Source: Halichondria panicea
Taxonomy: Eukaryota; Porifera; Demospongiae; Suberitida; Halichondriidae
Length of the DNA stretch: 64,000 nucleotides
Direction: 5' to 3'
NCBI RefSeq assembly: GCF_963675165.1
Contig: NC_087389.1
Coordinates: forward strand, 6,124,621-6,188,620
Position 1 is the first letter of the stretch; every line of letters begins with the position of its first letter. Of this stretch, positions 718 through 57,108 are shown piece by piece. A model generated the notes under the pieces. That model ran no database searches, was not told where the DNA came from, and saw nothing but the letters and a program-made list of their open reading frames with translations. Made by a program: the position numbers and the translations under genes.

Positions 718-872
718 TCTACCACCAACCACGCAGTTTTATGTATTTTTCCTTTGTGTACTTTGTCCGATTTTATCACTTGCGTAATACTGATAAATAT
801 ACGAATTAATTCGAGCATGCGCATACAAGGTATACCAGGCGGCCGCTGTAAAGCGGACTTGAGTCGAGGCTA

Positions 873-969
873 CCGCTTCGCATAAGATCATGACGTTATA
901 GAAGAGGTAAGATCATGTGTCAGGTCACCTATGTATAGGGCTGGGATCAGCAATATTGATGGTAAAGGT
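873..969 (+). repeat. left terminal inverted repeat of the KDZ element
   Basis: Reverse complement of 10486-10585, with only a few differences (for example a GC pair present on the right and missing on the left, and one extra C at the right copy's ggatcc). Confidence 0.8.
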
Positions 970-1043
970 ATCGCATGTACTGGTGAAAAATGCCCTATGC
1001 AGCTCTACAATATTAATTAGCTTAGCTATATTAATTTACCACT

Positions 1044-4000
1044 ATGGCTGATAGATACCCACTAAGTGAGGATCCAAAAAAGACCTTAATAAGATTTTAT
1101 GAGGAGGGCATGCAAAGTAAGGGCAAAACCTGTGCATTATTTCATCTTCAGGCACAGAAGGCGACCAATCTCCCTTTAGACGTTGTTCTGGTAGGTTTAA
1201 TACCATAAATAGATCTAAATGGCATAATTAATGTCATGGGGTGAATGCTCTATGCATTCATGGAGCATTCACCCCATGCGTTGAGCTCAGTTGAGCTTCA
1301 TCGCACAGCAGCAAATGGATATAACTTTGTGAATCTATAAAGCAACGGTACGATCAGAAAACAGTTGCCTTCAAAAATCGTCTACAAGTTTCAAGTTGCC
1401 TATTATTTTCCAACTACTGTCTCATTAGCAGAGCAGTCTATGAAAGTGTCTAGTTCGCTCAAACAGTTCATTTTTGTGTCCACACACACACCAATCACTC
1501 TACCCCTGCTGCGCACACACGGGGTAATTACAGTGCCACCATAATTAAAGTACCATGTGAGCTCATAATTATAGCACTTTAATATTATCGTTTATACAGT
1601 ACAGGTACAGCTAGCTAGCTACAGTAAAACCTGTTCCAATGACCACTCTGATCATTACTATCCCTATGCTGATGTTTTTCACCTCCACCACTTCACACGT
1701 TAATTTGAGACGAGTGGTCTATAATAAAGGCCGCGATTCATTATGTTGTGTACATGATGTCAGTGGCAATATTATATTTATGTACATATTTATATGTGTA
1801 GAATTGGATTAGCAACTACAAGAGATCTCAGCGCAAAGGCGATAGCCCAAGAGTAGGGATTGCAAGCAGTGACATTCCTGGTGGTCCAGGACCACTAAAG
1901 AAAGGCAGATTCTTATCAATCCCCAATGCATATAATGTGCATGTTGCAGAATTCCTCAAGTCTGAAAGTCAGTATTACAAATACTTAATCTGGGTGCTAT
2001 ATTAAACGTTAAATCGTCAAAACTGTGCTGTGTGGCATTTTGTTTGCTACGGTGTTTTTCTGCTGAAGTGTATATATAGATAGCAATAATTAATATACCC
2101 CCCCCCCAATAATGTTCTAAAGTGACTACTATAGTTATACATCATCTGTTTCATGGGCTGCAATAATAATTTATAGATAGCCACAATAAGAATAAGCTTA
2201 AAATAATTCACAAACGTTATGTTGTTGTTTGCACTTGTGAAATGTGTATGTATACCCTTTAGGCTGTACATAATTATATTTTTTAACACTCAGATGCTCT
2301 TGCCCTGCCTACAACCAAAGAGAAATACTCAGCAGCCGCAGAGAAATGGCGATCTATGTCAGAGGAGGAAAAAGCAAACTGTAAAGAACGAATCGGAGAA
2401 TATTCAAAAAGCAAAGAAGTGACGTGGCCAAAGATTCAGAAAGTGATGAGACAGATGAATTCTGGGGTGAGAATTAATCTCTCATATATAGGCTAGGATT
2501 GTACACCAACTGCATAGTAACCAACTGAACATGTACTACAATGTCATGTATATGCAATCAAGTGAGGAGTGTTTTGTTAGCTTGTTAAATTATGGACTTA
2601 TAATTACAATACGTCGACATGTCTCTGATCAATGCAATGGACTCTTGCTCTCATTCAATGTACATTTGTATCAGTACACATTATATACACATGTTGCCTT
2701 TAAATTAATAAGTTGCACGGTCATGCATGCACTTGTAGTATATAGTCACCTGGATAAATGACGATAATTGATTACACAATGTAACTCTAAAACCTAAAAT
2801 GCAGGCACAATCACTAAGTGATGCGGCGGGAGTTGAGACAGTAACGCTACATTTTCATAAAGGGGAGGTGTTTACTGGAGGAAGTGAAAGAGGCGTACAG
2901 TATCTGAAAGAGCATCCAGTAGTGGAACTCTCGTTTACATCTTACTTTTATGAAAGTAAGCACTAGCTGTTTATACACAGTGTACATTTTGCTGAGTCAT
3001 GGTGTCTGGTTTATTCAGGTTGTCCTTATAATGAACTTTCATATGACTCAATTTTTGTATAATAGTTCTCCATTCAATTCCATAAAATTGTGTCTCCAGA
3101 ATCTGCCGAGGAAGAACTTCCTGAGTCCACTCAAAGAGCTACTTCTAAAAAGTTGGTTGAACAAGTGAAGAATATTTTCCAGCAGAAATATGGTGAGCTT
3201 AATTCTGTGTGCTTACATTAATTTGAGATGAGTTATATATAGGCCACGGTGATGGTGCGTATATAGGTAGCGGGGGGTGCTTGTTAGGCCTTGGGAGATT
3301 TTGTTAGCATGTACTCATGAGCATAATTTTAGAGAACTACATTTTCTGACTTTGACGGGTACAAATGAAAGCAAAAAGCAGTAAGTCATACCAGGAACAC
3401 TTAAATGTATGTGCTCGTGCTCCTGGTCATACAGTATCAGTCATTTGTTTTTTCAACAGCAACTTTATTTAGGCCTAGCACTGCTTTCATATTTGGATTA
3501 ATGCTCTATATACGCCAATAACCTGCCATGGTGTCATACAGGGGAGAGGGAAAGGGAGATATCCCTCCTCTGGCGACAATTTCCCCCCTAAATTTGCATT
3601 CAGGTACTAGTTGTATGACTGAGTGTCCATAGCCTTCAGGGTAGTATATTTAGGTGACTTTTCAAAGCATGCCCATTTCCCCTCTCTATACTTCAAAATC
3701 CTGTATGACACCCTGCCTGCTACACGATATTGTGTTCAGTCCCCCCAAAACACAGTCGTGCCTGGTGGTCTGGCAGTACGGCAGTACTATTCATCATGAT
3801 TGATGTATTTTCTATTACGATATCTAAACACACATAATGTACGTATAATAATATTATAATTATACTCCCCACAAACATGCAAGATTTACTTCTGGTGTAG
3901 CTATCTCTACGGGCCATATCGGAGATGTTCCATATGACAGTGAAGACATTGTAGTGAACCTGAAGGGCCTACCAACGAATATAGAGTTCAAAAGACCCTC

Positions 4001-4083
4001 GCTGTATGGAGTAAGGCAGCTTCAAACGATCATATCAAATAAATCAAAGTTTGAAATGCACGGTAAGTTTGAGGTTCATTAAT
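1044..4083 (+). CDS. HMG-box-like accessory protein of the KDZ transposon (6 exons)
   Basis: Exons, with GT/AG borders and phases that join: 1044-1190, 1802-1967, 2294-2466, 2805-2955, 3100-3192, 3901-4083. The product is about 300 residues. Exons 2-3 contain PNAYNVHVAEFLKSE followed by EKYSAAAEKWRSMSEEEKAN, the pattern of an HMG-box: an aromatic AYN helix, then a W in helix 2 and the SEEEK turn. The rest (HKGEVFTGGSERGVQYLKEH in exon 4; GHIGDVPYDSEDIVVNLKGL in exon 6) is not recognised. The last exon may instead splice at the gtaag near 4063. The gene lies inside the inverted repeats of the KDZ element and runs towards the transposase gene, so it is best read as transposon cargo that may help bind transposon DNA; this role is inference. 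Introns hold a hairpin (1235-1278) and a short mobile element (3527-3715). Confidence 0.65.
1235..1278. repeat. perfect 16-bp-arm hairpin
   Basis: Arms catggggtgaatgctc and its exact complement flank a 12-base loop, within intron 1 of the HMG-box-like gene. Possibly a tiny fold-back element; function unknown. Confidence 0.7.
3527..3715. mobile_element. short inverted-repeat element, GTGTCATACAGG family, copy 1
   Basis: Begins with ggtgtcatacagg and ends with cctgtatgacaccctg. A second copy lies at 39192-39428 with the same internal motif (gcattcaggtactagttg). Non-coding. The CAGGGTG ends resemble hAT-type termini, but no clean 8-bp target duplication is visible. It sits in intron 5 of the HMG-box-like gene. 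Confidence 0.65.
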
Positions 4084-5003
4084 AGGGGTGGGTATATAGC
4101 TATTATGCTTTTTTTTGTATGCTCACAAAGAATTATTATGTGACTGTTACTGTCGATACTCAAAATTGCATGTACCCACCCACCCACCCCTAGTCCTAAT
4201 TAAGTGAAACCCCTAAATGCGGGACCGTAGAAAATTATGATTATAAGCTAGTATAGATGTGTCTTTGAACATGCACCCATGGACATTTTTCTTCCGCCTT
4301 GCAGTACGGAGTGTGCACACAGCGCTAAGGGAACATAACTACCAACAACCCGGTGCCGTAGAAACTCAAGACTGATATGCTCCAGATATATATATATATA
4401 TATATAGCTAATAGTCACCGTCTGTACTCGATCATGGTAAAAATGTAGATACGTATTCTTTTGCTTATAATTATATTGTTGATTGGTCATAATTATTTAA
4501 ATGATATAAATGAAAAAGCATAATAATTATCATTGTTGACCTATTATATCTAGCTCAGGTTAGTCTAAACGATTGTAAATCGTCCGTAAGCGTCCTTTGG
4601 TTTAAGTAAATAGCAAGTTAATGTACACAACAAGGCCGTAACCATGGCAATGGTGTTATCATCCTGATCCATTTTATGTATCTAATATGAATCCCGAATA
4701 AAAAGGTACACAATGAAACCATTACACAATGACAATGAATAGACTGCAATGCACCCTCATTTATGGCCTGTATTTTTGAAACGGCCTTACCAACCTGAGT
4801 AGGCTATAACAGGATCGTATATAGCTATAATGATGCATATGACTTTACAATTAAAAATGGCCAATAATTGCTATAATAAAATTAAATTGTATTGTGTAAC
4901 ACATGCATGTGGCTAATTGTCTTCAGGTGGAAGGTTGTCACATAACATAATTAAAAATTAATTATTATCAATGATATCAACAAATGTACACAAAAATTCA
5001 AAA
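4084..5003. other. non-coding space between the two convergent KDZ-element genes
   Basis: AT-rich sequence with a short (TA) run near 4386-4405. I see no coding exon or RNA gene. It presumably holds both 3' untranslated regions. Confidence 0.5.
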
Positions 5004-8000
5004 TCACACATTCATGTCATCACTATCTACTGATTCATCGCATGACTCCTGTTCCTCAGCCTCAAGCTTTCGTAACCTCTCAGTTCGTTCGAAGTGCTCT
5101 TCAGCAACACTGTGCCAATAATCAATATCAGTTTGTTGTTCTTCATCAAAGAAATCCGGTGAATAGAGATCACAAGTGTGGCCTTCATTAGGTAGTTCAT
5201 TAACGTCTACGTAATACAGTGCGAAAGTTTTTCGGAGTGTGAGTACTTTAACACAAAGCTCACGAATGCGGGAATTGATCATTCCACTTTTCCCCATTTC
5301 TTCAACAGTTTGCTCATATGATGGTGTCAATGGTAGAGAAGTAGTGAGTCTATCAATCCGATTATGCAGCATAGAAATGAAACGTTTCATTTCAAGTTTT
5401 ATTAAATCTATTTCCTCTCTGGCTCGCTGCTGAAGAAAATACTTGTTCATGGCATCACGTCTAACATTAGCAGGGATCAATATCACTTGAACTTGAAGAA
5501 ACCCAAAGGTGTGAATGAATGTTATTTACAATCTCCCAAGTGATTTCGCATGGCAATGATTCCTGTTCTAAATCACAGGAAGAGGCTGTTTTATTGTACG
5601 CAGTAATCGTCTTCTTTAGTTGTTTTGTGATGTTAGTGATATTTGCTGATATTTTATGGGTCACGCTATGTCCAGCTGTAGAGCCAACATAAATAATTTT
5701 AGTCACAAAGATCAACTGAACGTACCAGAGAATTTGGCTTTAACTAGTAGCATATACCATCGTTGCCGAGCAATGGACTGGATATCACCAAAGAGAATTA
5801 AACATTGTTTCACGCTTCGGCTTTAAAGGAATTCGTTGTACACTTTATCACCAGCTTTCCATCTCTCTAAAACACGATTTTCCTGTGTTGTAGTTGATGG
5901 TTCAATCTGTGAAAACATTATTATTAATGTGAACTTGCATGTACTTTAGTCACCTGATCAACTTTCGTGAGAATAGTGACAGTGCAATCACATCAGTACA
6001 AGATTGCAAATCACACCTACAGTTATGGGAAAAAATTTCGGCACATTGTGTTCTTTTTAGGATCTTACTGAATTGCCCAGAAGGACTGGAGATGCTCAAC
6101 GTAAGATTCTTGCCATACGTTTTCTACGTGTACTTGCATGTCTATTATAACAGAATATTATTTTAGCCACACATAATAATTATCTTTTACTTTCACTAGT
6201 TGTGCACCCTTTAGATTTGTCTTCAGCGTACCAACGCTTAATGTCATTCGAAGTGAATACAGGGTCTGTGAAACAAATCAACATTAATTTTAGAGATATA
6301 ATTATCATGAATATTTTATTATTGCCAAAAATTAATACCGCCACTAGAATCAGTCCTGAGTGCTTCCAGATCGCTTGAGGTACCCTGCACTAAGTTAACA
6401 GCTTTTTTCATTCTTTCAACCAGTATATCACCTATATATAATTATATACATGTACAGTGTAAGTTTATAGATAAACGAAAGTTACCTAGGTTCATTGAAG
6501 ACTGGTACGCAAAATGACCAAGAGCATCATTCAGAACATCTATCCTGTGGGATGGTCTCATCTCTTTTGTCATTTTAGAAAATCGTCTCATATAGCTCCA
6601 TAAACGCTCAAGAACCTCACCATCAGTCAGTCCAAAACCTTCTTGAAAACGAGGGCTGAATTCCAGCTGATGGTAAGGACAAAGTTAATTCAGTGAGTAT
6701 ATACACAACTTATCACCTGGCACTGTGTTACATGCCCATAAGAATGGAATACAGGAACTGCAAATTTAAATCGGTCTACAAGGGGGTTCTTCTTTCCTTG
6801 TTATGTAAAACATCAATGACAAATTAATGGTGAGGCTATTTTAATTATGTTTGTAACTAATACCTCAAGATGATGCTTCAACAGACACCCAATGTCATAA
6901 AGGAACAAAATGGAAATGTCACCACAGGAATAGAGTTCCAAAAGCTTATCCAGTAGGTACACAGCGTAGCCAATTCTGTAACAGTAATGAATTGTAGGGC
7001 TCATCCCCGTGACTAACTTGCCAAGGTTTTGCTAATAATTGTGCAACTTAAACCTGTCATACATGTTCAGAACACTTTTAATTAGAACCCTAGCTGGGCT
7101 ATAGTACACTGCAAAAAACTCACCTTTCTCCAAACTTGAAATTCAGAAATTTCAGAGGGGATTCATGTCTACATGCAAGTCCAGCAACTGCTGTCTCATC
7201 AAGTGCTGCGTATCTCTGTCGAGATCTTACAATACTCCCAGCAAGGAAATCATTACAGCCCTACAATAAGACATGAATAGCAACTGATCAACTCCGTACA
7301 TAATATATATATACCTTTTTAGAAGCTTTTTTTGTGCTCGAGTAAGAGTTCATGAAATTATCAACTTCTTTTTGGTCAACGAAGTACCTTCCTTGGTGAT
7401 GGGGATTCCTGATACTTACACCAGCAGCTTTTTTTCGGCAAAGACCAAACATTGCATCATAGGAGATATGAACTATGCCACCTCTTTCCCCATCCTAAAT
7501 GGAATCGAACACATAAATTATGCGACGTTAGTATTGAAATACCTACCTGTGGGCATGCAGGACACTTACAGAAATCATCTGGCTCAGTAGATATACCATC
7601 AAGTGTTTGTAACTTGAAGTGGTAGTATCTGTTGAATAGGAATTTTGATCTGAGATACCACGTATTAACAGTGCAAGTACCTAAACTCCTCAAATGAGTC
7701 AATTATGGCTGGATATACTTTTCGAAACTGTATTGAAAACGAAAGTATTGGATATGAAATTTAAAACACTGCCATACGTCAAACCTGTGGGTAATCTGGT
7801 CCTAACAAATTTGACTGGGTTTCCAAAGCTTGAGCAAAGTCCATTACAGCCACCTGACAATCTAGCATCATAATTTTCATCTTTAGCAACAGATCAGTCG
7901 AGAAAGCTAGTGTTGGTCTGGTTGGTGTTGCAGCCCACAGATTCAACCTTAACAACGTTAAAGGTTCAGCCTCGCAATGACAAAACACAACACACAATTG

Positions 8001-8612
8001 GTGTTGAATTCCTATAAACCATAAGATACAACACATACTCACATACAAGTTTTGAAAGTTACCTGTTGCATCAACACAGACAACATATTTCTTATACTGA
8101 GTAGGACATTCGTGGATGGTTTTGAGAATCAACGTAGATGGGTACTTAAACCGCTGGAATCGATTCTAAAGAGAAGCAAATACAATACAGATAAAAACAG
8201 ATATAACGTACGTTGATCCATTTCTCTGGTGTATGAAATGCATTCCCAAGGAAATCTTCATCACTGTGGTGATTAACCGTACAACTATCACATAAGAATG
8301 TAGTTGGACCACACTGTTTACATCGCACAGATGCCATCGCGACTTTACACCTATCACATACAGTTGCTGGGGGTATACAACTCATTGCTACAGTTGATGA
8401 GATCAAAGATGGTAAGAGATTATCCCATGCCGATGCTGCCTTTTCACGTCTTCGATAGTGAGCAGATGGTAAATCACCATCTTGACTTGGTTGGTCATCA
8501 TCTGAGCCCACACCATCAAGATCACATGGATCACTGCCATCTTGCAACTCATCATGATCTTCACTATTTTTATGCCTCGAGGCGTAGCCGCACGAGGGAT
8601 ACGGTAAAGCTG

Positions 8613-8650
<38 letters not shown>

Positions 8651-10427
8651 TGTGTGTCTGTGTGTCTGTTCCAGCTGTAACTGCTCAACGGTTGCAATGC
8701 GACGAAAACTAACAGCTTCTATAGGCTTCTAGCCACGTTCTCTTGGATTTTGATTCGTGGATTAGCAAACTAAAGCTTCTTTCTAGAGTTATGGCTAGTT
8801 TGACTCACATTGAAGGCTGTTGCAGTCTCTTCAGAATCTTTCATAGCATCATCTGTCCGCACAAACTTTCTATTCAACATATGAGTTAGCCTTGCACTAA
8901 AGCGCTAGCTTTTTGTTAGCTACAAGACTCAGAAAATACCTGTTAAAACAGCTAGCTAGCAGTTAGTTGGGCGGAGTCCAACCAACGCTTTGCTCATGTA
9001 GCAGTTTTGTTCCCACTGCAAGAAATTTGCAGCCCAATCAGATTGCTGCGTTCAAGTGGGAAACCTTACAGCTCAATTTAGCTGACAAGGCGAGCTGGGA
9101 CACTGTATTTCTCTGGAGAATGCAGAAACAGCTCCTGCTGGATATCTAGGCTACTAGAAAAGAAGCATAGTCTATCTTAGCATCTATGAATGAAGCTTGA
9201 ACAGTATGTATTAATTAATTAAAAGGACTTGTCTTTGTTTTAAGTTTTGTTGTGCTACCAATAAGATTAGATCATTAGTTTGGACAAAACCTGTGTTATG
9301 TATGCCTTCTTTGGTCTTCGAAAAGCTTCTCAGAAGCCTTGGGGTAGTCTTATAGCTGGCTGTACCTCTCCTTGTGCTAGATGTCTAACTATTATGAAAA
9401 AGTTTATTTCTGCCTGTACTAAATCTTATATTACAGGCTACAGTATTCTTCTACTTTCTCTAAGAGTCTGAGGTCTTTCTTGAATTCCAAAACAACTATA
9501 GCTAGATCCAGTCAGCTAGAATAGCCATCCAAATAGTTAATTGATTTCTTTATATCGCACCCCTGAGCCATGCGGTTGTCAGCCACCTAAAGATTAAACA
9601 ATATTCATACTCTGTCTCAAGTACCGGTGGAACAAAACTGCTACGTGTACTGATACCCAACCCAGAGCGCAGCGTTGGTTGGACTCCGCCCAACTAGCTA
9701 GCAGTAGCCATTTGTGAAATTGATCTCTTTGGACACACCCTTTAATTATTCCTATGGATGTAATGCGCATGCGCGCTCATTCCCCAGATCCAGATCCTCC
9801 TGGCAGAATCATATTTTTCTTGAGGGCCTGGTAAGCCACAAAACACTACTATAGATAACAATATGTATGTACACAAGTCTTTTCTTCTTAAATATTATAA
9901 TTATACACTGCATGAACTACAGATCCAATTTTCTTCTTTCTTGAGGTCCTGGTATTAAAGCCACATAATACAACAATAGATGCATGTAATAAGTCTTTTC
10001 TTCTCAGTGACTTTATATAGATAAGCTAACTTTATGAAATAATTATGCACTTCCGCTTATAATTAATTAAAAACAAAATCTTCTTCTTTGTTGCTTCCTA
10101 GATCCTTGAGGTCCTGGTATAAGCAGCCACAAAACACAACAATGATACCATAATTATACAATTGCAAGTCAGTTTTAGACAGATTATTTTATACACTTTT
10201 TCCTCTTCTATACTTTCTCTTCTATACTTTTGAGCGAAAGCAAAAACATGGCGAGAGGCATTAGCACAGCGCCAGCTTGAACACTAGTGTTCACAGTTGT
10301 CCCGACAGGCTTGGCTAGCTAGTGGAGGATAGACCAGGGGTGTCTTAACTTTCTTGAACCTCTTCTTTCTCACAATACTAGTCGCCACAACTGGAAGTTT
10401 TCTTCTTTTCCTGAACTGGCTAGCCAT
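5004..10427 (-). CDS. KDZ transposase, first exon interrupted by a repeat
   Basis: Multi-exon gene. Recognisable parts in order: a basic N terminus (MASQFRKRRKLPVV, ATG at 10427); a Cys/His cluster of the CxC2 type typical of KDZ transposases (exon 8212-8568, CDRCKVAMASVRCKQCGP, then FLCDSCTVNHHSDED); CPACPQ (7552-7649); SYDAMFGLCRKKAAG, the first catalytic Asp region; ACRHESPLKF; FLYDIGCLLKHHLE, second Asp; FHSYGHVTQCQ; GFGLTDGEVLERLWSYM, the catalytic Glu region (6486-6669); and an acidic coiled-coil-like C terminus ending at 5004. These motifs define the family, which cuts and pastes DNA through an RNase H-like fold. Between the N-terminal piece and the CxC2 exon lies an inserted repeat (8569-10290), which puts a stop directly after the N-terminal piece. 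The rest looks intact. Exon borders near 5500-6480 were not worked out. Confidence 0.8.
8569..10290. mobile_element. dispersed repeat of unknown class, copy 1, inside the transposase exon
   Basis: Starts with tatgcctcgaggcgtagcc, runs through a (TG)n tract and ends near agcgccagcttgaacactag. A second copy at 15590-16265 shares both ends and most of the body, and a short reverse-orientation fragment lies at 58593-58619. This copy is longer because a smaller element (8964-9696) has inserted in it and because a segment with ttcttgaggtcctggtat occurs three times (about 9810-10130). No protein coding. The class is unresolved. Confidence 0.7.
8964..9696. mobile_element. non-autonomous element with 9-bp target duplication (TAGTTGGGCGG ends)
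   Basis: Ends are perfect inverted repeats of about 25 bp beginning tagttgggcggagtccaacc, and further matching (gtagcagttttgttcc) lies inside. It is flanked by the direct repeat gctagcagt at 8955-8963 and 9697-9705. The second copy of the host repeat (15590-16265) lacks the insertion. No coding potential seen. A 9-bp duplication suggests a Mutator-like mover, by general knowledge. Confidence 0.85.
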
Positions 10428-10485
10428 CACTGCATGTACTGATCACTGCACTGAAGGTGGTAGGATCTAGATATCCCAATGACCG

Positions 10486-10585
10486 ACCTTTACCATCAAT
10501 ATTGCTGGATCCCAGCCCTATACATAGCGGTGACCTGACACATGATCTTACCTCTTCTATAACGTCATGATCTCATGCGAAGCGG
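10486..10585 (-). repeat. right terminal inverted repeat of the KDZ element
   Basis: Reverse complement of 873-969. It ends about 135 bases before the start of the multi-pass membrane protein gene. Confidence 0.8.
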
Positions 10586-10720
10586 GTGATATTCTTGCGG
10601 CTGTGCACCTCTTAATCCTTTCTCCTTTCAACTCAACAACAGTTTTAGGTCACTGTCACCAGGAAAAAGCAAAGAACTGATCAGCTCTAAATCTATGCAG
10701 TCTAAGTCCAGACATTAGCA

Positions 10721-13700
10721 ATGCCAGTGAGTGCATATAATTACAGGCTACTGCATAGATCTAATTATATTATAATTATATATACAAGCTATAAAGTGGA
10801 TGTGCATATGAGCATGACCTCCTATAAACTACTGCATAATTATAGTCTTCTTAAGTTACAGCTCTCCCTCCCCATGTAGGGCAAGCGTCCGATAGCTCAG
10901 AGCAAGGTTGTCTTTATCTCACTCCTAGTGGTGGACATGCTCAACACCATCCTGCAAGAGACCATCACACTCTCCAAGGGTGATCGAGTAGCAAGTGCCC
11001 GAGCTGCCATCGTTGTCTTTGTTCTCTGTATGATTGTATTATTTGGCCCGTTAACGATTGGCCATTATGTCTATTTCTGCATAGCAAGAAAAAATCCAGT
11101 CAGTTTTATTACATCTCTCCTTGAAATTATGGGAGTGCTTTTCTTTTTCTATGGCAACAATATCACAAGTATTATCAACAGCTGGAGAATTGAGTTAGGT
11201 TGTGACTCTCAATGCGTCCTCGATAATCAAATAGCAGCTGCTTTCTCTTTGGGAATGTCTCTAATCATTATTCAGATAGTTCCGTCTGTTCTGAAAAAGT
11301 TGTTAAAGTTGCTGAAGAGAAAACAACAACATGTGAAGAAAACAAGATCACCTGATTGGTACACTGCGCTTGATTTGATCACGATGTTTATCAAGATCAA
11401 TTAACACCATCTACTCGGCTATTGTTGGGATGACACAATCCACTGATTTCTGCAGCAGCACTGAAGTTGCTGCAAGTTCAGTTTTCCTGTCCGTTTGTGT
11501 TCTACTGGGAATTGCTAGTGAGTTAATCGATTATTTCTATGCTTTGGACACGAATTTAAAGAGCAACAAAGAATACATCGACAAGTCATTGGTAACTATC
11601 GGCATGATTCTTATTGTCACTATTTGCCTTCCCTTTTATTTACTGGCCGATAATTTCCAGCCTCTCGATTGTGCGTTCAGTTGTGACACTATTGTTGCTA
11701 ATGCGACCATCAGCACAACCACATGCAACCGGACGGCCAACAGTGGAGTTAGACTGGGGTTTACCCTAACCACGCTTATTATCGTCCTCATCTTCTCCAG
11801 TGTTTATTTCTATCATGTTCGATTAGCTGAAATAAATCGAAAGAAGCTGAAGAGTAACATTGTTATAATTACTGGGACACAGCTGGATAATTTAATGATT
11901 ACATGTGAAGCTAGCTATAATTACGTGTGTAGCATCTGTTGCATGGGCACATTAAGTGGTAGGTACATGGGATGTCAGAGACAAAGTTTTGTTTGAAGTG
12001 CTCCCAGAAGTAATGGTGGAGTGTATTCTTTGTTGAAGTTAGTGGTGCGCTGATATCCATCAGCATAGTGGGCATCAAGTTCCATAACCTTGTGATACGA
12101 TTGAGGTAGAAGTGTCTGCTTGCGCTGTAGTGATTGGCTTGTACAGTGAGTTTGTTGTTGCAACTGAAGCGGGTGCGACCAGTAACGAATTTGATGTGAT
12201 CTCTTATGTTGAAGTTGTCCGAGGGTTCCTTTAAGTGACTTTACTAGAAACATTATGTCCTGTATTTCAAACCAGTACATTAGAGGTAGTAGCTTCAAAT
12301 CGGACAGCCTTGATCTGTATGAGCTTGAGTAATCATTGAGTATGAATTTGGTGGCTCTCCTCTGGATTCTTTCTAGTTTTTGAATGTCCTTGATCAAATT
12401 TGGTCTCCAGACTTGGGAGCAGTAGGTGACCTGGGATCTAACTAGGGTTATATATAACGATTTTTTTGTGCTGGTTTCTGATTTCATTGAAATCGTCCGT
12501 CGGATGAGGTTAAGAGCTCGGTAGGCCTTAGACGATATGAGGTTATAATGCAGTGACCAGGAGAGGTTGTTGGCTATGCACAAGCCTAGGTCTTTTTCTT
12601 TTGTAGCAAAGTTAAGGTGAGAATTGTGGATTGAGTAGAGTGTATTAGGGTTGTCTTCGTGCCAGCTAGGATGAGTTATGCGCAGCACATTACATTTTCC
12701 TTCATTGAGTTGCATGTTCCAAGTAGTGCACCAGGATGACAACTGGTTGATGTCTGTTTGTAATTCCAATTGGTCTTCCGTAGAAGTGATGCACTTTACT
12801 AGCTTTGTGTCGTCCGCAAATAGAAATGGATTGGCAGATGAGATGCACTCCGGTAGGTCATTGATAAAAATAATAAATAACAGTGGGCCTAGGATGCTTC
12901 CTTGCGGAACTCCTGACATAACTGGTAAGTAGTTGGATGGAGTATTAATAACACTTGTGAAGTGTATCCTGTCATGTAGGTACGATTTAAACCACAGCCA
13001 AAGAGGAGGGCCTGTGATGCCTGTCTTCCAAAGCTTTAGCAACAGCTCATTGTGTGGGACCGTGTCGAAAGCTTTCTTAAAATCTAGGTAAGTTGACATC
13101 TGTAGGTTTTCGGTTTTCTATGTTGTCAAAAACTTGGGAAAAGAATAGGATTAATTGAGAAAGACATGATCGGTTTCTTAGGAACCCGAATTGTTGGCAT
13201 GTTATCTTTGGTCTCACGAATGTAATAATTTTCTTGTAGATGATAGTTTCAAAGACTTTGGATATAATTGGGAGAAGAGAGATGGGCCGAAAGTTTTCTA
13301 CAAGATGGGGGTCGCCCTTCTTTGGGATTGGGCAGATTTTGTGGACCTTCCAGTGGGGTGGGAAAGTATGTGAAGATAGGCTAGAATTGAAAATGTGTGT
13401 GACTGATCTTGTGAGAGCGGTAGCACAGCATTTGAGGGTTGACGCATTTATATTATCGTGGCCTGGTGACTTTGTTGTGTCTAGTGAGGTGAGGGTTTCG
13501 TACACCTCAGACTCTTCTATAGAGATAGAGCTCAGTTGATAAGTGGGGGAGGGCATTTTGTCCCATGGAGGAAGTGTATAGTCACTTCTTGTGAATGTCG
13601 AGTTAAAGTATTTGTTGAATATTTCAGCAATCTGTCCAGTCTCTGTGATGATGGAGCCGTTGTGGATTATTGTTCTAGTTTGTGGACTTTTCTTACTTAG

Positions 13701-14439
13701 GTCGCGCAGATGACGGAATAGTTTACTTGGGTTGAACTTAAAGCATACTGCCAACGATTTTTCGTACTCAGATTTGGCAGTTGTCATTAGTTCCTGGAGA
13801 TGAGTAGACAAGTTAGATAGCCTTAGGGATGTACTCTCAGTGGGTTTGGATTTGTTTCTGCGTGTAAGCGTTTTGCAGCGATTGATAGTATGTCTCATTT
13901 CTGTGGTATACCATTTTGGGCTTTTTGACTTCTGAGAGTTAAATTTGGGCACAAATATTTCCTGTGCTCTTGAGATGATTTTTTCTAGATGGACTGAACA
14001 GGCAGGCTTGGGTTGGCAGATAAAAAACTCAGACATGGAATTAAAATTTGCTTTTTTAAAGTTGTAGTTGCTGGCCGGTTTGTCTTTAGAGAGTAGTTTT
14101 GGTGTTTTTAAGCCATCTAGTGAGAACGTGATAAGGAAGTGATCAGACATAGGTGAACAATTAGACGAGTCAATGTGCAGGTTGAGTATCCTAAAAGGGG
14201 TGGGGCTGGTCTTGCAGGTACACTCGTAGATCATCAATCTATAGTATACACTGTACTGTTTTATAATAATTATCGAATGCTATGAACTTTACTTCCAATT
14301 TTCAATTTATATTAGGTACTTGAAGAGATCTTTGAACGATTCCGGAACTTTACTTTTGACTTTGAAGAGTTTCATGTTCACATTACACACTGTGCATATG
14401 GCAAATGACACTATATCATTAGTAACATACAAATCTTGA
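10721..14439 (+). CDS. multi-pass membrane protein of unknown function (4 exons)
   Basis: Model: 10721-10726, 10880-11358, 11456-11962, 14316-14439. Phases join and give 371 residues; the frame changes near 11400, which the 97-bp intron 11359-11455 explains. The alternative is a frameshift. About seven hydrophobic segments are visible, for example VVFISLLVVDML, AAIVVFVLCMIVLFGPLTIG, FITSLLEIMGVLFFF, FSLGMSLIIIQIV, VFLSVCVLLGIASELI, IGMILIVTICLPFYLL and LTTLIIVLIFSSVYFY. A loop between the last two has several Cys and Asn-x-Thr sites (NATISTTTCNRT), suggesting it is outside the cell. No family recognised. The last intron (11963-14315) contains a LINE in the opposite direction. The stop lies 55 bases from the stop of the synphilin-like gene. 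Confidence 0.55.
11975..14237 (-). mobile_element. 5'-truncated non-LTR retrotransposon (LINE), reverse transcriptase remnant
   Basis: Reading on the minus strand, the frame opens at the very end of an endonuclease domain (SDHFLITFSL), goes through a linker, and then the reverse transcriptase: RPISLLPIISKVFE, CQQFGFLRNRS, LDFKKAFDTVPHNELL, SGVPQGSILGPLLF and the catalytic FADDTK. One frameshift lies at about 13077-13099, between the NIENRKPTDV and FKKAFDTV parts. The C terminus includes the usual LINE tail. The missing 5' part and the frameshift show it is dead. Type is CR1/Jockey-like by the RT motifs; it has no obvious poly-A tail. It sits in the last intron of the membrane protein gene, antisense to it. 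It is not the same sequence as the LINE at 51 kb. Confidence 0.85.
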
Positions 14440-51020: not shown

Positions 51021-51461
51021 AGAACTACAACTACCTCAGAGATATCTGATTCGATTAAGTCCATATCTGATGTTGATGTTAATGCTTTTTCGGTGAAGAG
51101 AAAATACAAGACCATTAAATCGTCCCAAATAAGTAAGTGGTGGTTTGTTGTTCGTGGCGATGAAATGAAGCTAAAAATACTCGAGGATAAATGGTTGCTA
51201 ATTGAACAAGCTAGGTGGAAGATAGAGCCACTATATCGCTTTAGCGATCCACCAGATAAGGCATTTGGAACACATGCTCAAGATGTCAATGTAGATCCAT
51301 CGCTGGACCCTCCTGAGGAGGAGGATCATGTTCATGATGTTACTGATCAGGGTTCACAGGCCCAAAATGACAATGTAGACCAATCGCTGGAACCTACTGA
51401 GGATCAAAACAACTCACAACCACCTCCTCCCAGGGCACCTCATTTTTTAGAGATCAATTAG
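51021..51461 (+). CDS. LINE ORF1, 5'-truncated
   Basis: Open frame without a start codon, since the element is cut off at its 5' end; the few codons upstream belong to the LTR and host exon. Visible: KWWFVVRGDEMKLKILEDKW, then an acidic stretch with two similar units (HAQDVNVDPSLDPPEEE, QAQNDNVDQSLEPTEDQ) and a proline run (QPPPPRAP). No zinc knuckle or RNA-binding motif is left. It ends at TAG 51459-51461, just two bases before the ATG of ORF2, so ORF2 may be translated by stop-restart. Confidence 0.7.
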   Translation, partial: RTTTTSEISDSIKSISDVDVNAFSVKRKYKTIKSSQISKWWFVVRGDEMKLKILEDKWLLIEQARWKIEPLYRFSDPPDKAFGTHAQDVNVDPSLDPPEEEDHVHDVTDQGSQAQNDNVDQSLEPTEDQNNSQPPPPRAPHFLEIN

Positions 51462-51463
51462 GC

Positions 51464-54334
51464 ATGCAGCATCACATGGAGGGTGAAAACTCTCAACCCA
51501 GTAATTTTTGTAACAGGCATGATCAGTTCACCATTATTTATTACAATTGTAGAAGCCTTCTGCCAAAATTTGACGAACTTCTTGCTGTATGCCAATCATT
51601 TAGCCCTGATGTTGTCTGTCTCGTGGAAACTTGGTTATGTAAAGACATTGAAGATAGAGAATTATTTATTCCTAATTATTATTTTGTACGTCAAGATAGA
51701 AATAGACATGGTGGTGGCGTTGCTATGTACATTCACAATAGTGTTAAATATTCAGTTTTACTTACAGCACCGCCAGGTCTGGAGTTTTTATTAGTCTCCC
51801 TTCTCAGGAACCATCTTAAACTAAGTCTTGGAGTTTTTTACCGTCCACCGTCATCATCAAATTCTATTTTTAATACTTTATCAAATGTTTTACTTTCTAT
51901 ACACCAGTCCTTTTTATCCAATTTAGTTATTGTTGGTGACTTTAATGTTAATTTTAATCCAATTCATTACCTGTACTCCCACTTGTTAAGTTTTATGAGT
52001 AATTATTCACTGTCACAAATTGTTAACTTCCCAACTCATTTTAGTAATCTTAATCAGTCATCTACTATCGATTTAGTCCTTGTCTCGAAGCCAACCAATA
52101 TCAAATACTGCAATGCGATTCCAGAACTAGCAAACTCTGACCATCTGGGACTTTCACTTTCACTCTCTATCTGTGAACCACTGCTCAACAGGGAAAATAT
52201 TATCAAAAGGAAAATCTGGCAATATTCGGCAGCAGACTTTGATCGTGCTAATGAGCTCTTGGACATGATAGACTGGGAAGAAGAACTAAATCCTAATGAT
52301 ATTAACTCCAGTGTACTCGCCTGGCAATCACTATTCCTGCAGATTATGGAACTCAGTATTCCATGTAGAACTATCAAGGTGAAAAGTAAAACCCCATGGA
52401 TCAATAGAGAAATTATTAAAGGGATAACTAGGAGGAACACTTACTTTCACAGAGCTAAATCGTCTAACTGTCATAGGGATAAGGAGAAATACAGAGTTCA
52501 GAGAAATAGTGTGGTGGCAATGATTAGGAAAAGCAAGAACAAATTTTTCTCCCAATTGAATACCAAGGATAAAAAAGTATTCTGGAAGACTGTGAAAACC
52601 CTAAATGGGAGAACTTGTTCTATTCCTACCCTTGAAGAGAGTGGCACAACTATAGACCAAGCAACTTGCAAAGCTGAAGCTTTTAATAAATTCTTCCACT
52701 CTTGTTACAATCGTAACTGCCCTCCCTTACAGGCTAACAACTCCATGGAGCAATTTGGCAACATGATCCCTTCTGGGTGTCCTGAAGAGTTACTGTGCAC
52801 TGAAGAGGAAGTATTTAAAGACCTTACCAAACTTGTAATTGGAAAATCTATGGGTTGTGATGGCGTAGCTGCTAAGATGCTAAAGAGCACTGCTGCAAGT
52901 ATTAGTGCCCCACTCACGTCTCTTTTCAATTCCTCTATCTCGACTGGATGTTTTCCGGCAGCCTGGAAGATGGCTAGAGTTGTTCCTGTACTGAAGGGAG
53001 GCAACCCCGCTCATGTTAGCAACTATAGACCAATTTCGATACTTCCTACAATAAGCAAAATTTTAGAGAAACACGTTAAGTCTCTTTGTCAGGAACACCT
53101 GTGCGACCAGGCACCTATATCTCCAAGGCAGTGGGGCTTCATGTCATCACGCTCATCTATCTCAGCCCTAATACAGGTGATAGAAGACTGGAGTAGAGCC
53201 CTGGATCAAGGTCAAGAAGTATGCGTAGTTTTCTTTGATATCAAAAAGGCATTCGATACTGTCCCCCATGTCAATCTTCTGAAACATCTACAGTCACTTA
53301 ATTTTAACAAATATTTACTAAACTGGGTGCATAGCTACTTACTGGAGAGGAAACAGTTTGTGGGTATTGATGGCAGTAACTCAGACAGCTTACATGTTCT
53401 CTCAGGTGTGCCCCAAGGTTCGGTTTTGGGTCCACTATTGTTCATTACGTACATAAACCAAGTCACAGATGTTATTTCTCAAGACAGTAAGCTAAATATG
53501 TTTGCTGATGACATGGCCTTATACAGAGTTATCACATCTACTAATGACTACGTGAATCTTCAAAAGGACATTTCTAAAGTCTCAAATTTTTTGAACACTA
53601 AATTATTAGAATTTAATCTTGGCAAGTGTAAGTTTATGTCCGTTTCTAAGAAAACATCGCGCTCATTGAAGGCTCCAACTCTACTTCTAAATGGTTATGT
53701 ACTGCAGCAGGTTTCTAACTACAAGTATTTAGGAATTACCATATCGGCTGACTTGAGCTGGCACACTCACATCAATACGATTTGTAATAAAACAAGGAAG
53801 TTGATAGGTCTCCTACATCGCAGGTTCTCTGAGAATTCTTCTCCAACAACACTGTTAAAGTTGTATACATCGTTCGTGAGACCACATCTGGAATACGCAT
53901 CCTCTGTATGGAACCCATTTCACAAGTGTGAAATAAACAATTTAGAAAAAGTCCAGAGATTTGCTATGAGAGTCTGTCTGAAGAAATGGAATTTGAAAAG
54001 TGAAGAATTACTCACCTTGACCAGGCTTCCTTCTCTGCAGCTGAGGCGCCTTGCTGCGGTGCTTTGCCACCTTTTCAAAATACTACACAATCTAACTGAC
54101 TTCCCAAACAACCCAGCAACCAAGAGAAATATGACGTACAGTAGTAGAACTGTTAACTGTTTTACTCTGGTCCCCTACCAATGTAGAACATCCTTTTACA
54201 AATTCTCATTTTTTCCGCATGCAATCACAATATGGAATAGGCTGGTTAGCCACAAGGACTTTACTTTAGTAGACTGTACTAGTATAAGTTCATTTAAGTC
54301 TCATCTGTATTCACATCTAGTTGACATGTTGTAA
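51464..54334 (+). CDS. LINE ORF2: endonuclease and reverse transcriptase, intact
   Basis: 956 residues, uninterrupted. N-terminal apurinic-type endonuclease: YYNCRSLLPKFDEL, VCLVETWL (catalytic Glu), RNRHGGGVAMYI, FYRPPSSS, VIVGDFNVNF and NSDHLGLSLSL (catalytic Asp-His). After a linker, reverse transcriptase: NYRPISILPTISKILEK, RQWGFMSSRSS, FFDIKKAFDTVPHVNLL, SGVPQGSVLGPLLF, MFADDMALY (catalytic Asp pair), then YLGITISADLSWHTH and the C-terminal LINE tail (SFVRPHLEYASSVWNPF). This layout is that of the CR1/Jockey groups. The enzyme nicks target DNA and copies its RNA at the nick. No RNase H domain seen. Confidence 0.92.
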   Translation: MQHHMEGENSQPSNFCNRHDQFTIIYYNCRSLLPKFDELLAVCQSFSPDVVCLVETWLCKDIEDRELFIPNYYFVRQDRNRHGGGVAMYIHNSVKYSVLLTAPPGLEFLLVSLLRNHLKLSLGVFYRPPSSSNSIFNTLSNVLLSIHQSFLSNLVIVGDFNVNFNPIHYLYSHLLSFMSNYSLSQIVNFPTHFSNLNQSSTIDLVLVSKPTNIKYCNAIPELANSDHLGLSLSLSICEPLLNRENIIKRKIWQYSAADFDRANELLDMIDWEEELNPNDINSSVLAWQSLFLQIMELSIPCRTIKVKSKTPWINREIIKGITRRNTYFHRAKSSNCHRDKEKYRVQRNSVVAMIRKSKNKFFSQLNTKDKKVFWKTVKTLNGRTCSIPTLEESGTTIDQATCKAEAFNKFFHSCYNRNCPPLQANNSMEQFGNMIPSGCPEELLCTEEEVFKDLTKLVIGKSMGCDGVAAKMLKSTAASISAPLTSLFNSSISTGCFPAAWKMARVVPVLKGGNPAHVSNYRPISILPTISKILEKHVKSLCQEHLCDQAPISPRQWGFMSSRSSISALIQVIEDWSRALDQGQEVCVVFFDIKKAFDTVPHVNLLKHLQSLNFNKYLLNWVHSYLLERKQFVGIDGSNSDSLHVLSGVPQGSVLGPLLFITYINQVTDVISQDSKLNMFADDMALYRVITSTNDYVNLQKDISKVSNFLNTKLLEFNLGKCKFMSVSKKTSRSLKAPTLLLNGYVLQQVSNYKYLGITISADLSWHTHINTICNKTRKLIGLLHRRFSENSSPTTLLKLYTSFVRPHLEYASSVWNPFHKCEINNLEKVQRFAMRVCLKKWNLKSEELLTLTRLPSLQLRRLAAVLCHLFKILHNLTDFPNNPATKRNMTYSSRTVNCFTLVPYQCRTSFYKFSFFPHAITIWNRLVSHKDFTLVDCTSISSFKSHLYSHLVDML

Positions 54335-54462: not shown

Positions 54463-54767
54463 TGTGCATAGTGCTTACTTTTAGTTGTGTTAATTAACTC
54501 ATTTCCTGTGGTTAACTTTACTTCCTGTATTGTACTTTTCTGTTATTGTGGTTTCTGTTCGTTAGTAGGTTCTTTCTGTATAGTTGTTCTTTGTTCCCTT
54601 TGTGCCTAGCTATAGGGGCCCGCTCCAGGCGGCTCTTTGTGTATGGGAGCCTCTGCTCCACTGCCTTTTGTCTTGTACATACTAATACCTTTGTTCTTGT
54701 GCATTTTATCAGTTGTTGAATACGATTTCACTAAACTCAAATGTCTGCATGAACCTGCGACATAACA
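54459..54767 (+). repeat. 5' LTR, main part
   Basis: Matches 57178-57486 essentially base for base; the first bases of the LTR (51014-51020) lie on the other side of the LINE. Confidence 0.92.
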
Positions 54768-54812
54768 ATTGGCGACGAGGATTACAACGGCAACCAAACC
54801 AAGTACTACCCC

Positions 54813-57108
54813 ATGGCTCATCTCTCAATCGGCACTATTGGCTCCTTCCAACCCAGCACGGAGGATTGGAAAGTGTATACAGAGCGACTTCAACTCTTTT
54901 TTTGTCGCTAACAGCATTGATGACGCAGACATACGTCGTGCAACACTTCTCACCGTGTGCGGACCGTCAACGTATGGACTCGTCCGTGATCTACTTGCTC
55001 CCGCAGCTCCTACCGAAAAAACATTCGAAGAACTTGTTGCTCTGGTTCAGGAACACCAGCAGCCTACACCCTCACCCATCGTCGAGAGGTACACCTTCTT
55101 TACAAGAGTACAACACTCAGGAGAGACGATCAATGACTATGTGGCCCAGCTCCGCAAGATTGCTAAACACTGCCAGTTTGGCGAAACCCTCAACGACATG
55201 CTCCGAGACCGCATTGTTTGTGGATGTCGAGACAAGAAGCTCCAGTACAAGCTTTTGGCTGACCCTGCACTCACTTTTGACAGCGCTCTGGCTGTTGCAA
55301 AGGCATCGGAACTAGCTGATCGTGGCACCAGAAATCTCTCTGGACAGGACGCGTCTGTAAACCGTCTATTGGACAACCGTCGACACAAGCCTCCACTCCC
55401 TCGGGAGAAACCTCCCTCAATTGGCCCAACACAACCGTGTTTTCGTTGTGGTGCAGCTCATCCGGCAACTACGTGCAAGTTTCGCACAAGCACTTGTCAC
55501 TACTGCAAGAAACAAGGGCATATCTCAAAGGTCTGCAGAAAGAGAACAAGAGACTCAAAAGCAGACAAAACTGCATCTAGATCTACTAACCAGCTGATTG
55601 GTTCTAATGATGATGATGAGGAGGACACAGATGAGTACAGCTTGTTCTACTCCTCCGCTGGCCGCACTCAGCCAATCACTGTACCTGTTACTCTCAATGG
55701 ACTGGATACTACCATGGAAATTGACACAGGTGCAGCCCTCTCTGTGATGAATGAACACACGTACCGATCGCTGTGGCCTAAACGGAAGCCCCCTCTCAAA
55801 CCCACTTCAATCCGACTCAAGACCTACACTGGTGAGCACATTGTGGTAAAGGGCATAATTCGTGTGCATGTTCTGTACCAAGCACAGCAGGCGGAATTGG
55901 ATCTCCTTGTTGTCGCTGGCAAAGGACCCTCCTTGCTGGGACGAGACTGGCTGGAGAACCTAAGACTGGATTGGCAAAGCATTAAATACTCAACGACCGT
56001 GGCCGACGATCTCCAGGAGATCTTGGACAAGCATTCCACAGTGTTTGGGATTTGGGACCCGGGCATCTCGAAAATGAAGAGTCTCGCCCGATGTTTTGTA
56101 TGGTGGCCCGGAATGGACAAAGCACTCAAAGAGAAAGTCAAGCTGTGTGACGCCTGCCAGCGAACCAGGAAACTCCCTCCAGTGGCACCGATTCAACCCT
56201 GGGAATGGCCAGAACGCCCCTGGGCTAGGCTGCACATCGACTACGCTGGCCCTCTTCTCGGACACATGTTCTTGGTCGTAGTAGACGCCCACTCGAAGTG
56301 GATGGAGGTGAAAGCTGTACGACACGCTACCACGGCTACTACCCTCACTGAACTCAGGTCGATCTTCGCGACTCACGGCATACCTGAATTGCTCGTGTCA
56401 GACAACGGATCAGTGTTCACCAGTGTTGAATTCAAGGACTTTGTAAAAACACAAGGAATTCGACACACTACCTCAGCACCATACCACCCCGCAACAAATG
56501 GATTGGCAGAACGAGCCGTCCAAACCTTCAAGGCTTACATGAAGAAAGCCCCTGATGCCCCACTCAGAGACAACCTATCTCAGTTTCTGTTTCAGTACAG
56601 AATGACGCCGCACTCCACAACAGGCATCTCCCCATCTGAGCTACTACTGAATCGCCGACCTCGCTCTAAGCTTGACCTAGCTATCCCGAACCTGACTCAG
56701 AAAGTTCGCGCAAAACAGCTGAAGCAAAAGATTGGTCATGATCAGCATGCTGTGGCTCGGAAGTTCGATGTTGGAGACAATGTCTATGTTTGTGATCTGC
56801 CCTCCAAGAAGGACTGGGTTCCCGGCACAATTGAAAGTACAGCTGGCCCTCTGTCTTTCAACGTTACCCTGATGACTGGTCAGACGTTTCGTCGACACGC
56901 AGATCATCTTCGCCCCCGCTCTACAGTCGAACAACAACCCCTGACTGATTGGACTGATATACCGGAACTAGATCATGATACCGAAACACCCGACTCGAAC
57001 TCTGAACAATTACCACCACCACCAACTGGCTCGACACTAGCAACTCCAAGTGTTCGTCGGTCAGCTCGAGCGACAACCGCTCCAGACTACCTTGTGGACC
57101 ATTACTAG
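54813..57108 (+). CDS. gag-protease-integrase polyprotein of the LTR element; RT and RNase H deleted
   Basis: The gag start (ATG 54813, MAHLSIGTIGSFQPSTEDW) is in a different frame from the rest; a run of seven T at 54897-54903 marks a one-base shift. After it the frame is open to 57108. It holds a gag core (NDYVAQLRKIAKHCQFG), two zinc knuckles (CFRCGAAHPATTC, CHYCKKQGHISKVC), and an aspartic protease (MEIDTGAALSVM, LLGRDWL). The sequence then goes from LQEILDKHSTVFG straight into ISKMKSLARCFVWWPGMD, which belongs to integrase: the whole RT/RNase H region is missing, in frame. Integrase keeps CDACQ of its zinc finger (the His half appears lost), catalytic HIDYAGPL, VSDNGSVF and NGLAERAVQTF, and a C-terminal DNA-binding part. 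It cannot copy itself but could be mobilised by an intact relative. Confidence 0.85.

Follow-up and report, generated by a model that had tools for sequence, protein, structure and literature searches.

A degraded KDZ-class transposon of Halichondria panicea and its convergent partner gene with homeodomain-, HMG-box- and TFII-I-like parts

We analyzed a stretch of 64,000 nucleotides from the sponge Halichondria panicea (contig NC_087389.1, positions 6,124,621 to 6,188,620; hereafter the window), in which a pair of inverted repeats encloses a KDZ transposase gene and a second gene in convergent orientation, here termed the partner gene. From its sequence we read this element as a decayed copy of a KDZ-class DNA transposon with two genes, and we assign the two-gene reading a probability of about 0.85. 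In the predicted partner protein a divergent homeodomain is joined by an HMG box and a conserved central region, to which the window's family adds a TFII-I-type repeat. A first-pass annotation of this DNA had already suggested a two-protein transposon. This proposal is now well supported, because a homologous convergent second gene recurs beside KDZ transposases in other families of the same genome.

A convergent gene pair between inverted repeats

The inverted arms at positions 873-929 and 10529-10585 of the window are 98% complementary over 57 nt and extend to about 100 nt if small gaps are allowed (Table 1). The transposase is encoded on the minus strand by exons with GT-AG joints. For Pfam searches we used the spliced protein of a closely related copy on another contig, with an X at one stop. 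This query matched the KDZ domain PF18758 with an E-value of 1.1e-41, passing the cut-off, and its N-terminus carries a cysteine cluster of the CxC type (CxC2, 9.2e-11; CxC1, 3.7e-9). The initial description of a KDZ transposase enclosed by inverted repeats of about 100 bp is thereby confirmed.

The genome comprises 131 Mb in 39 contigs, labeled C in the following; the window lies on C13 and the transposase query was taken from C9. We refer to the KDZ family of the window copy as family 1, with long copies in the window, on C9 and on C3. Allowing up to three mismatches, the terminal pattern was found at six places in the 131 Mb, every one of them a family-1 end, and the backward control pattern gave no match. 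The repeats therefore recur as element ends, and chance repeats or an isolated artefact were rejected as the source of the inverted arms.

The partner gene occupies positions 1044-4375 of the plus strand and consists of seven exons instead of the six first proposed. They join to 963 bases with a single open frame of 320 amino acids, and all inner joints are GT-AG. The frame is intact in both the window and the C9 copy, which differ at 6 of the 963 bases. The C3 copy still has recognisable exons, but its exon 4 includes an additional copy in inverted orientation, and simple joining of the exons gives no open frame. Partner sequence of family 1 is also present at C13:2.35 Mb (diverged and decayed) and at C5:6.6 Mb (the left 421 bases with exon 1); C16:444 kb holds only a repeat-like stretch.

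Table 1. Ends and gene parts of the element, in positions of the window
Feature	Positions	Strand	Remarks
Left terminal inverted repeat	870..973	+	outermost bases deviate from family pattern
Partner exon 1, homeodomain-like first part	1044..1190	+	GT donor, open frame; profile searches
Partner exon 2, homeodomain-like end and first half of HMG-like box	1802..1967	+	AG-GT joints; profile
Partner exon 3, second half of HMG-like box	2294..2466	+	AG-GT joints; HMG_box_2 16 bits, sub-cut-off; profile
Partner exon 4, central region common to family 2	2805..2955	+	AG-GT joints
Partner exon 5, beginning of GTF2I repeat	3100..3192	+	AG-GT joints; Pfam, PDB
Partner exon 6, bulk of GTF2I repeat	3901..4062	+	AG-GT joints; Pfam, PDB
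Partner exon 7 with stop codon	4305..4375	+	AG acceptor, stop
Transposase gene, 3' part, premature stop and frameshift relative to C9	5004..5882	-	exon limits uncertain
Transposase exons 2-12, CxC2-like cluster and KDZ domain	6191..8165	-	eleven exons, GT-AG, joined frame open
Transposase exon 1, 3' part	8212..8570	-	
1.7-kb insertion inside transposase exon 1	8571..10287	.	missing from C9 and C3 copies
Transposase exon 1, 5' part including start codon, severed by insertion	10288..10427	-	
Right terminal inverted repeat	10486..10588	-	

The window copy had been called complete-looking, a description that has to be withdrawn. It is 97% identical to the C9 copy over 7.8 kb and colinear with it save for the 1.7-kb insertion; it also carries a stop and a frameshift in the transposase gene, its left terminus deviates from the family-1 pattern at two positions, and no target duplication was seen in its flanks. 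The insertion starts with a repeat-like CCTCGAGGCG motif and contains inverted arms of its own (8961-8995 and 9665-9699, 91% complementary). Damage is also found in the other long copies: the C9 transposase has one stop and one frameshift, and the C3 copy has stops in transposase exons and a match that breaks off short of the right terminus. As read, none of the three should be able to make its own transposase. The window copy has probably lost this ability, with its partner frame left intact. The C9 copy has 5'-CA..TG-3' termini and is flanked on either side by GATGGCA, a 7-bp duplication, which is therefore present in one of the two family-1 copies with both ends read.

Other KDZ families, their partners and their target duplications

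A genome scan with PF18758 gave 66 matches, and none of 14 control genomes matched. Family 2, the younger of the two, comprises 16 KDZ loci that are 95-99% identical to the copy on C11, from which its partner protein was read. This partner is homologous to that of family 1, convergent to the KDZ gene, and encoded by five exons. When partner exon matches were set by hand against the 16 KDZ loci, at least one exon was found at all of them and the complete set of five at 11; exon 1 is missing on C12 only and exon 5 at C5:1.44 Mb only (15/16 each). At two further loci, on C7 and at C1:16.70 Mb, the family-2 partner occurs without a KDZ match. The second gene thus recurs in family 2, but the C-terminus of the family-2 partner gives no GTF2I match in Pfam.

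A third KDZ lineage is present on C5, where a KDZ match at 2009148 (plus strand) faces a GTF2I repeat at 2010714 (minus strand) that exceeds its cut-off. By eye only, exon-4-like and half-HMG-like stretches can be recognised there. For a second pair on this contig (2031478 and 2033053), the KDZ and GTF2I matches both fall under the cut-offs. A fourth KDZ group consists of five loci on C1, C4, C8 and C17. Facing its copy at C1:7267783 is a minus-strand frame of 179 amino acids (positions 3-539 of the stretch read beyond), which is unlike the other partners and matched neither a Pfam family at E up to 1 nor a PDB chain at E up to 10. A protease reading of this frame, made by eye only, was consequently dropped.

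The family-2 elements read 5'-CAGGGGGTTCGCATGG...GAATGGGGTG-3' at their ends, and their inverted repeats are shorter than the roughly 100 bp of family 1. Perfect 7-bp target duplications flank seven of the eight copies with both ends read (on C10, C8, C6, C4 and C5, and two on C17); none was seen for the eighth, the C11 copy. Six of the seven have CA..TG termini, and the one at C17:3.86 Mb starts with TA. Over both families, 8/10 copies with both ends read show the duplication, the misses being the C11 and window copies. Another 17 family-2 copies were compared at the right boundary, which lies within six bases in 12 of them; the matches of the other five end earlier. The joined flanks of the C8 copy match hairpin-like repeats across the joint (e.g. 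C14:2239784-2239846, 91%, query 18-78). Since these are copies of a palindromic repeat and not allelic sites, they are supportive rather than decisive as empty-site evidence. Two observations concern the surroundings of family-2 copies. C11:956902-1296383 harbors a dispersed local repeat, and from the element end on, the right flank of the C11 element is matched exactly by many copies of it. At C4:5397104-5412653 two family-2 copies follow one another head to tail, separated by only one 7-bp target copy.

Domains of the partner protein

The TFII-I-type repeat is recognized in a single sequence. Pfam finds one GTF2I stretch in the window partner with an E-value of 1.9e-10 and 41.4 bits (cut-off 27). 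The C-terminal 96 amino acids matched 12 PDB chains at E up to 10, ten of which are TFII-I-family repeats (best 1.2e-6) and the remaining two HopBF1 (0.078 and 0.086). With the whole protein, 13 chains were obtained at E up to 1: ten TFII-I repeats, 2da4 (0.027), which we take to be a homeodomain structure, and two HopBF1 chains. No HMG chain appeared in this search, and the reversed protein matched nothing up to the same E-value. When viral contigs were scanned with the I-repeat part, no relative turned up.

The evidence for homeodomain and HMG box comes from profiles and from family 2. In the window partner, HMG_box_2 reaches 16 bits (0.021) and stays under its cut-off of 22.4, and three other sub-cut-off families, EPCAM-Trop-2_C, DUF3106 and Catalase-rel, have better E-values. 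Pfam detects no homeodomain in the single partner sequences. A profile built from the family-1 and family-2 partners together with a related protein from C16 matched 46 PDB chains at E up to 1, headed by 2da4 (1.1e-6) and including TFII-I repeats (2.2e-6), TFAM HMG boxes (8.8e-5) and HMGB1; a few unrelated chains appear from 0.046 upward. An N-terminal profile gave 30 chains with 2da4 at 4e-8, then DUX4 and LMX1A, and interleukin-2 chains from 0.63. The family-2 partner of C11 has homeodomain-like exons, an HMG box, the exon-4 region and a different C-terminus; its HMG_box_2 match of 23.2 bits passes the cut-off, and its HMG_box match of 20.5 is under that of 25.4. The first-pass annotation had read exons 2-3 as an HMG box, which family 2 and the profile support and the score of the window copy itself does not. 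It had also taken the partner for a plain HMG protein, overlooking the GTF2I repeat and the putative homeodomain.

The GTF2I family PF02946 has eight matches in the genome, six of them over the cut-off: the three family-1 copies, C5:2010714, C16:366050 and C14:3875831; the other two are under it. At the C16 and C14 loci, 3.15 kb and 1.2 kb of sequence were read, and HMG-like pieces were noticed by eye that Pfam did not confirm. A sub-threshold CxC2 match lies about 0.8 Mb from the C14 gene. These two genes may be donors of the transposon partner or its domesticated descendants.

Elsewhere in the window, long frames at 11975-14279 (minus strand) and 51401-54334 (plus strand) resemble, on visual inspection, proteins of non-LTR retrotransposons (LTR, long terminal repeat) and show what look like reverse transcriptase motifs. 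A 780-aa frame at 54766-57108 (plus strand) resembles, again by eye, a protein of an LTR retrotransposon in which zinc knuckle, protease and integrase parts can be made out.

Role of the partner and comparison with known systems

How could the two proteins work together? The transposase would cut and join at a 7-bp stagger. The partner would bind terminal or sub-terminal DNA through its homeodomain and TFII-I repeat, and its HMG box would bend the end DNA so that the two distant ends are paired, in the way HMGB1 helps RAG. Taken as a whole, a two-gene KDZ transposon whose partner acts as such an architectural helper is what we favor, with moderate confidence.

The main rival to the helper role is a transposon-borne regulator that influences how its element is transcribed or packaged in chromatin, by promoter activation or anti-silencing, and stays out of the cut-and-paste reaction. 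Homeodomain, HMG box and TFII-I repeat are all typical of transcription factors, and the TET/JBP genes of fungal KDZ elements are thought to act on silencing, according to an excerpt of PMC12730594. No finding speaks directly against a regulator, but an HMG box suits DNA bending, and we regard this rival as possible, if on balance unlikely. The persistent linkage of KDZ and partner fits both roles alike.

Several observations weigh against the two-gene reading or its details. In the genome scan with PF18758, the C14 and C16 contigs gave no KDZ match. The first-pass annotation had named a gene living apart from any transposon as evidence against its proposal, and to the extent of these two distant relatives such genes do occur. 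Family 2 lacks a GTF2I match, so KDZ elements can do without this part, and the fourth KDZ group is adjoined by a different kind of frame at the one locus read. At the sequence level, the HMG box of the window copy is under the Pfam cut-off and the homeodomain is visible by profile only. Finally, divergence between copies gives no clear sign of constraint: it is lower in exons than in introns between window and C9 (6/963 against 24/2325) and higher in exons between window and C3 (26/954 against 55/2332) and between C9 and C3 (26/954 against 42/2307), although exon 4 of C3 is rearranged.

Because related genes without KDZ exist on C14 and C16, host capture or domestication has to be considered. 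The second gene could be cargo that was captured from the host and plays no part in transposition, and the C14 and C16 genes, whose GTF2I repeats exceed the cut-off, relatives of the donor. However, at least three KDZ lineages keep the partner in the same convergent order, and the partners of families 1 and 2 are only about 30% identical, which indicates that the linkage is old and has been kept; we therefore consider mere cargo improbable. That the TFII-I label is an artefact, comparable to the hAT transposons annotated as GTF2IRD2 (documented in the excerpt of PMC10641963), is hardly credible, since the documented case matches a fused hAT transposase, whereas here the I-repeat itself is recognized by the Pfam model and solved chains, at six over-cut-off places in four settings (family 1, C5, C14 and C16).

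If the two-gene reading with a helper is correct, the second component that KDZ elements retain in an animal-like genome is a three-part protein of DNA-binding type, and clean ends with target duplications make its role testable. The presence of a TFII-I repeat within a transposon would also provide a concrete hypothesis for the origin of TFII-I factors, a subject on which the open-access literature yielded nothing in our searches. One could speculate that a homeodomain-HMG-TFII-I protein is the regular second component of KDZ transposons in early-branching animals, that vertebrate TFII-I factors, and perhaps the homeodomain gene of 2da4, descend from such partners, and that the C14 and C16 genes are separate domestications; we regard this scenario as doubtful.

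The combination of homeodomain and TFII-I repeat with KDZ looks new, and we found no report of either together with KDZ in the open-access literature; KDZ with HMG is known from fungi. Iyer et al. 2014 reportedly described fungal KDZ elements with an additional divergent HMG protein, and we know of no homeodomain or TFII-I repeat in them. Their likeness to the sponge elements lies in an additional HMG-type protein accompanying KDZ. The TFII-I family (GTF2I, GTF2IRD1, GTF2IRD2) shares one clear I-repeat with the partner. GTF2I and GTF2IRD1 contain several I-repeats in one protein, whereas the partner has a single Pfam repeat together with a homeodomain and an HMG box, and lies within a transposon.

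KDZ transposons are already known from animals, as stated in the excerpt of PMC9297572. Kyakuja-type fungal elements share with ours the KDZ transposase, 7-bp target duplications and 5'-CA..TG-3' termini, as far as the excerpt of PMC12730594 goes. In contrast to two Laccaria Kyakuja families, which are described there as devoid of terminal inverted repeats, the Halichondria elements possess them; and the fungal families of this source carry TET/JBP genes, whereas the sponge elements carry a partner of the homeodomain-HMG type, which in family 1 and on C5 also has a TFII-I repeat. Zisupton and Dileera, the former of which occurs in animals, resemble the sponge elements in their KDZ transposase, multi-exon gene and inverted repeats and differ in their 8-bp duplications, compared with 7 bp here (excerpts of PMC12730594 and PMC9297572). 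Harbinger elements have a Myb/SANT partner protein (same excerpt of PMC12730594). Like RAG with HMGB1, they offer a parallel in which a transposase is aided by a separate DNA-binding protein; the proteins are unrelated to those of the sponge elements, and the likeness is one of working.

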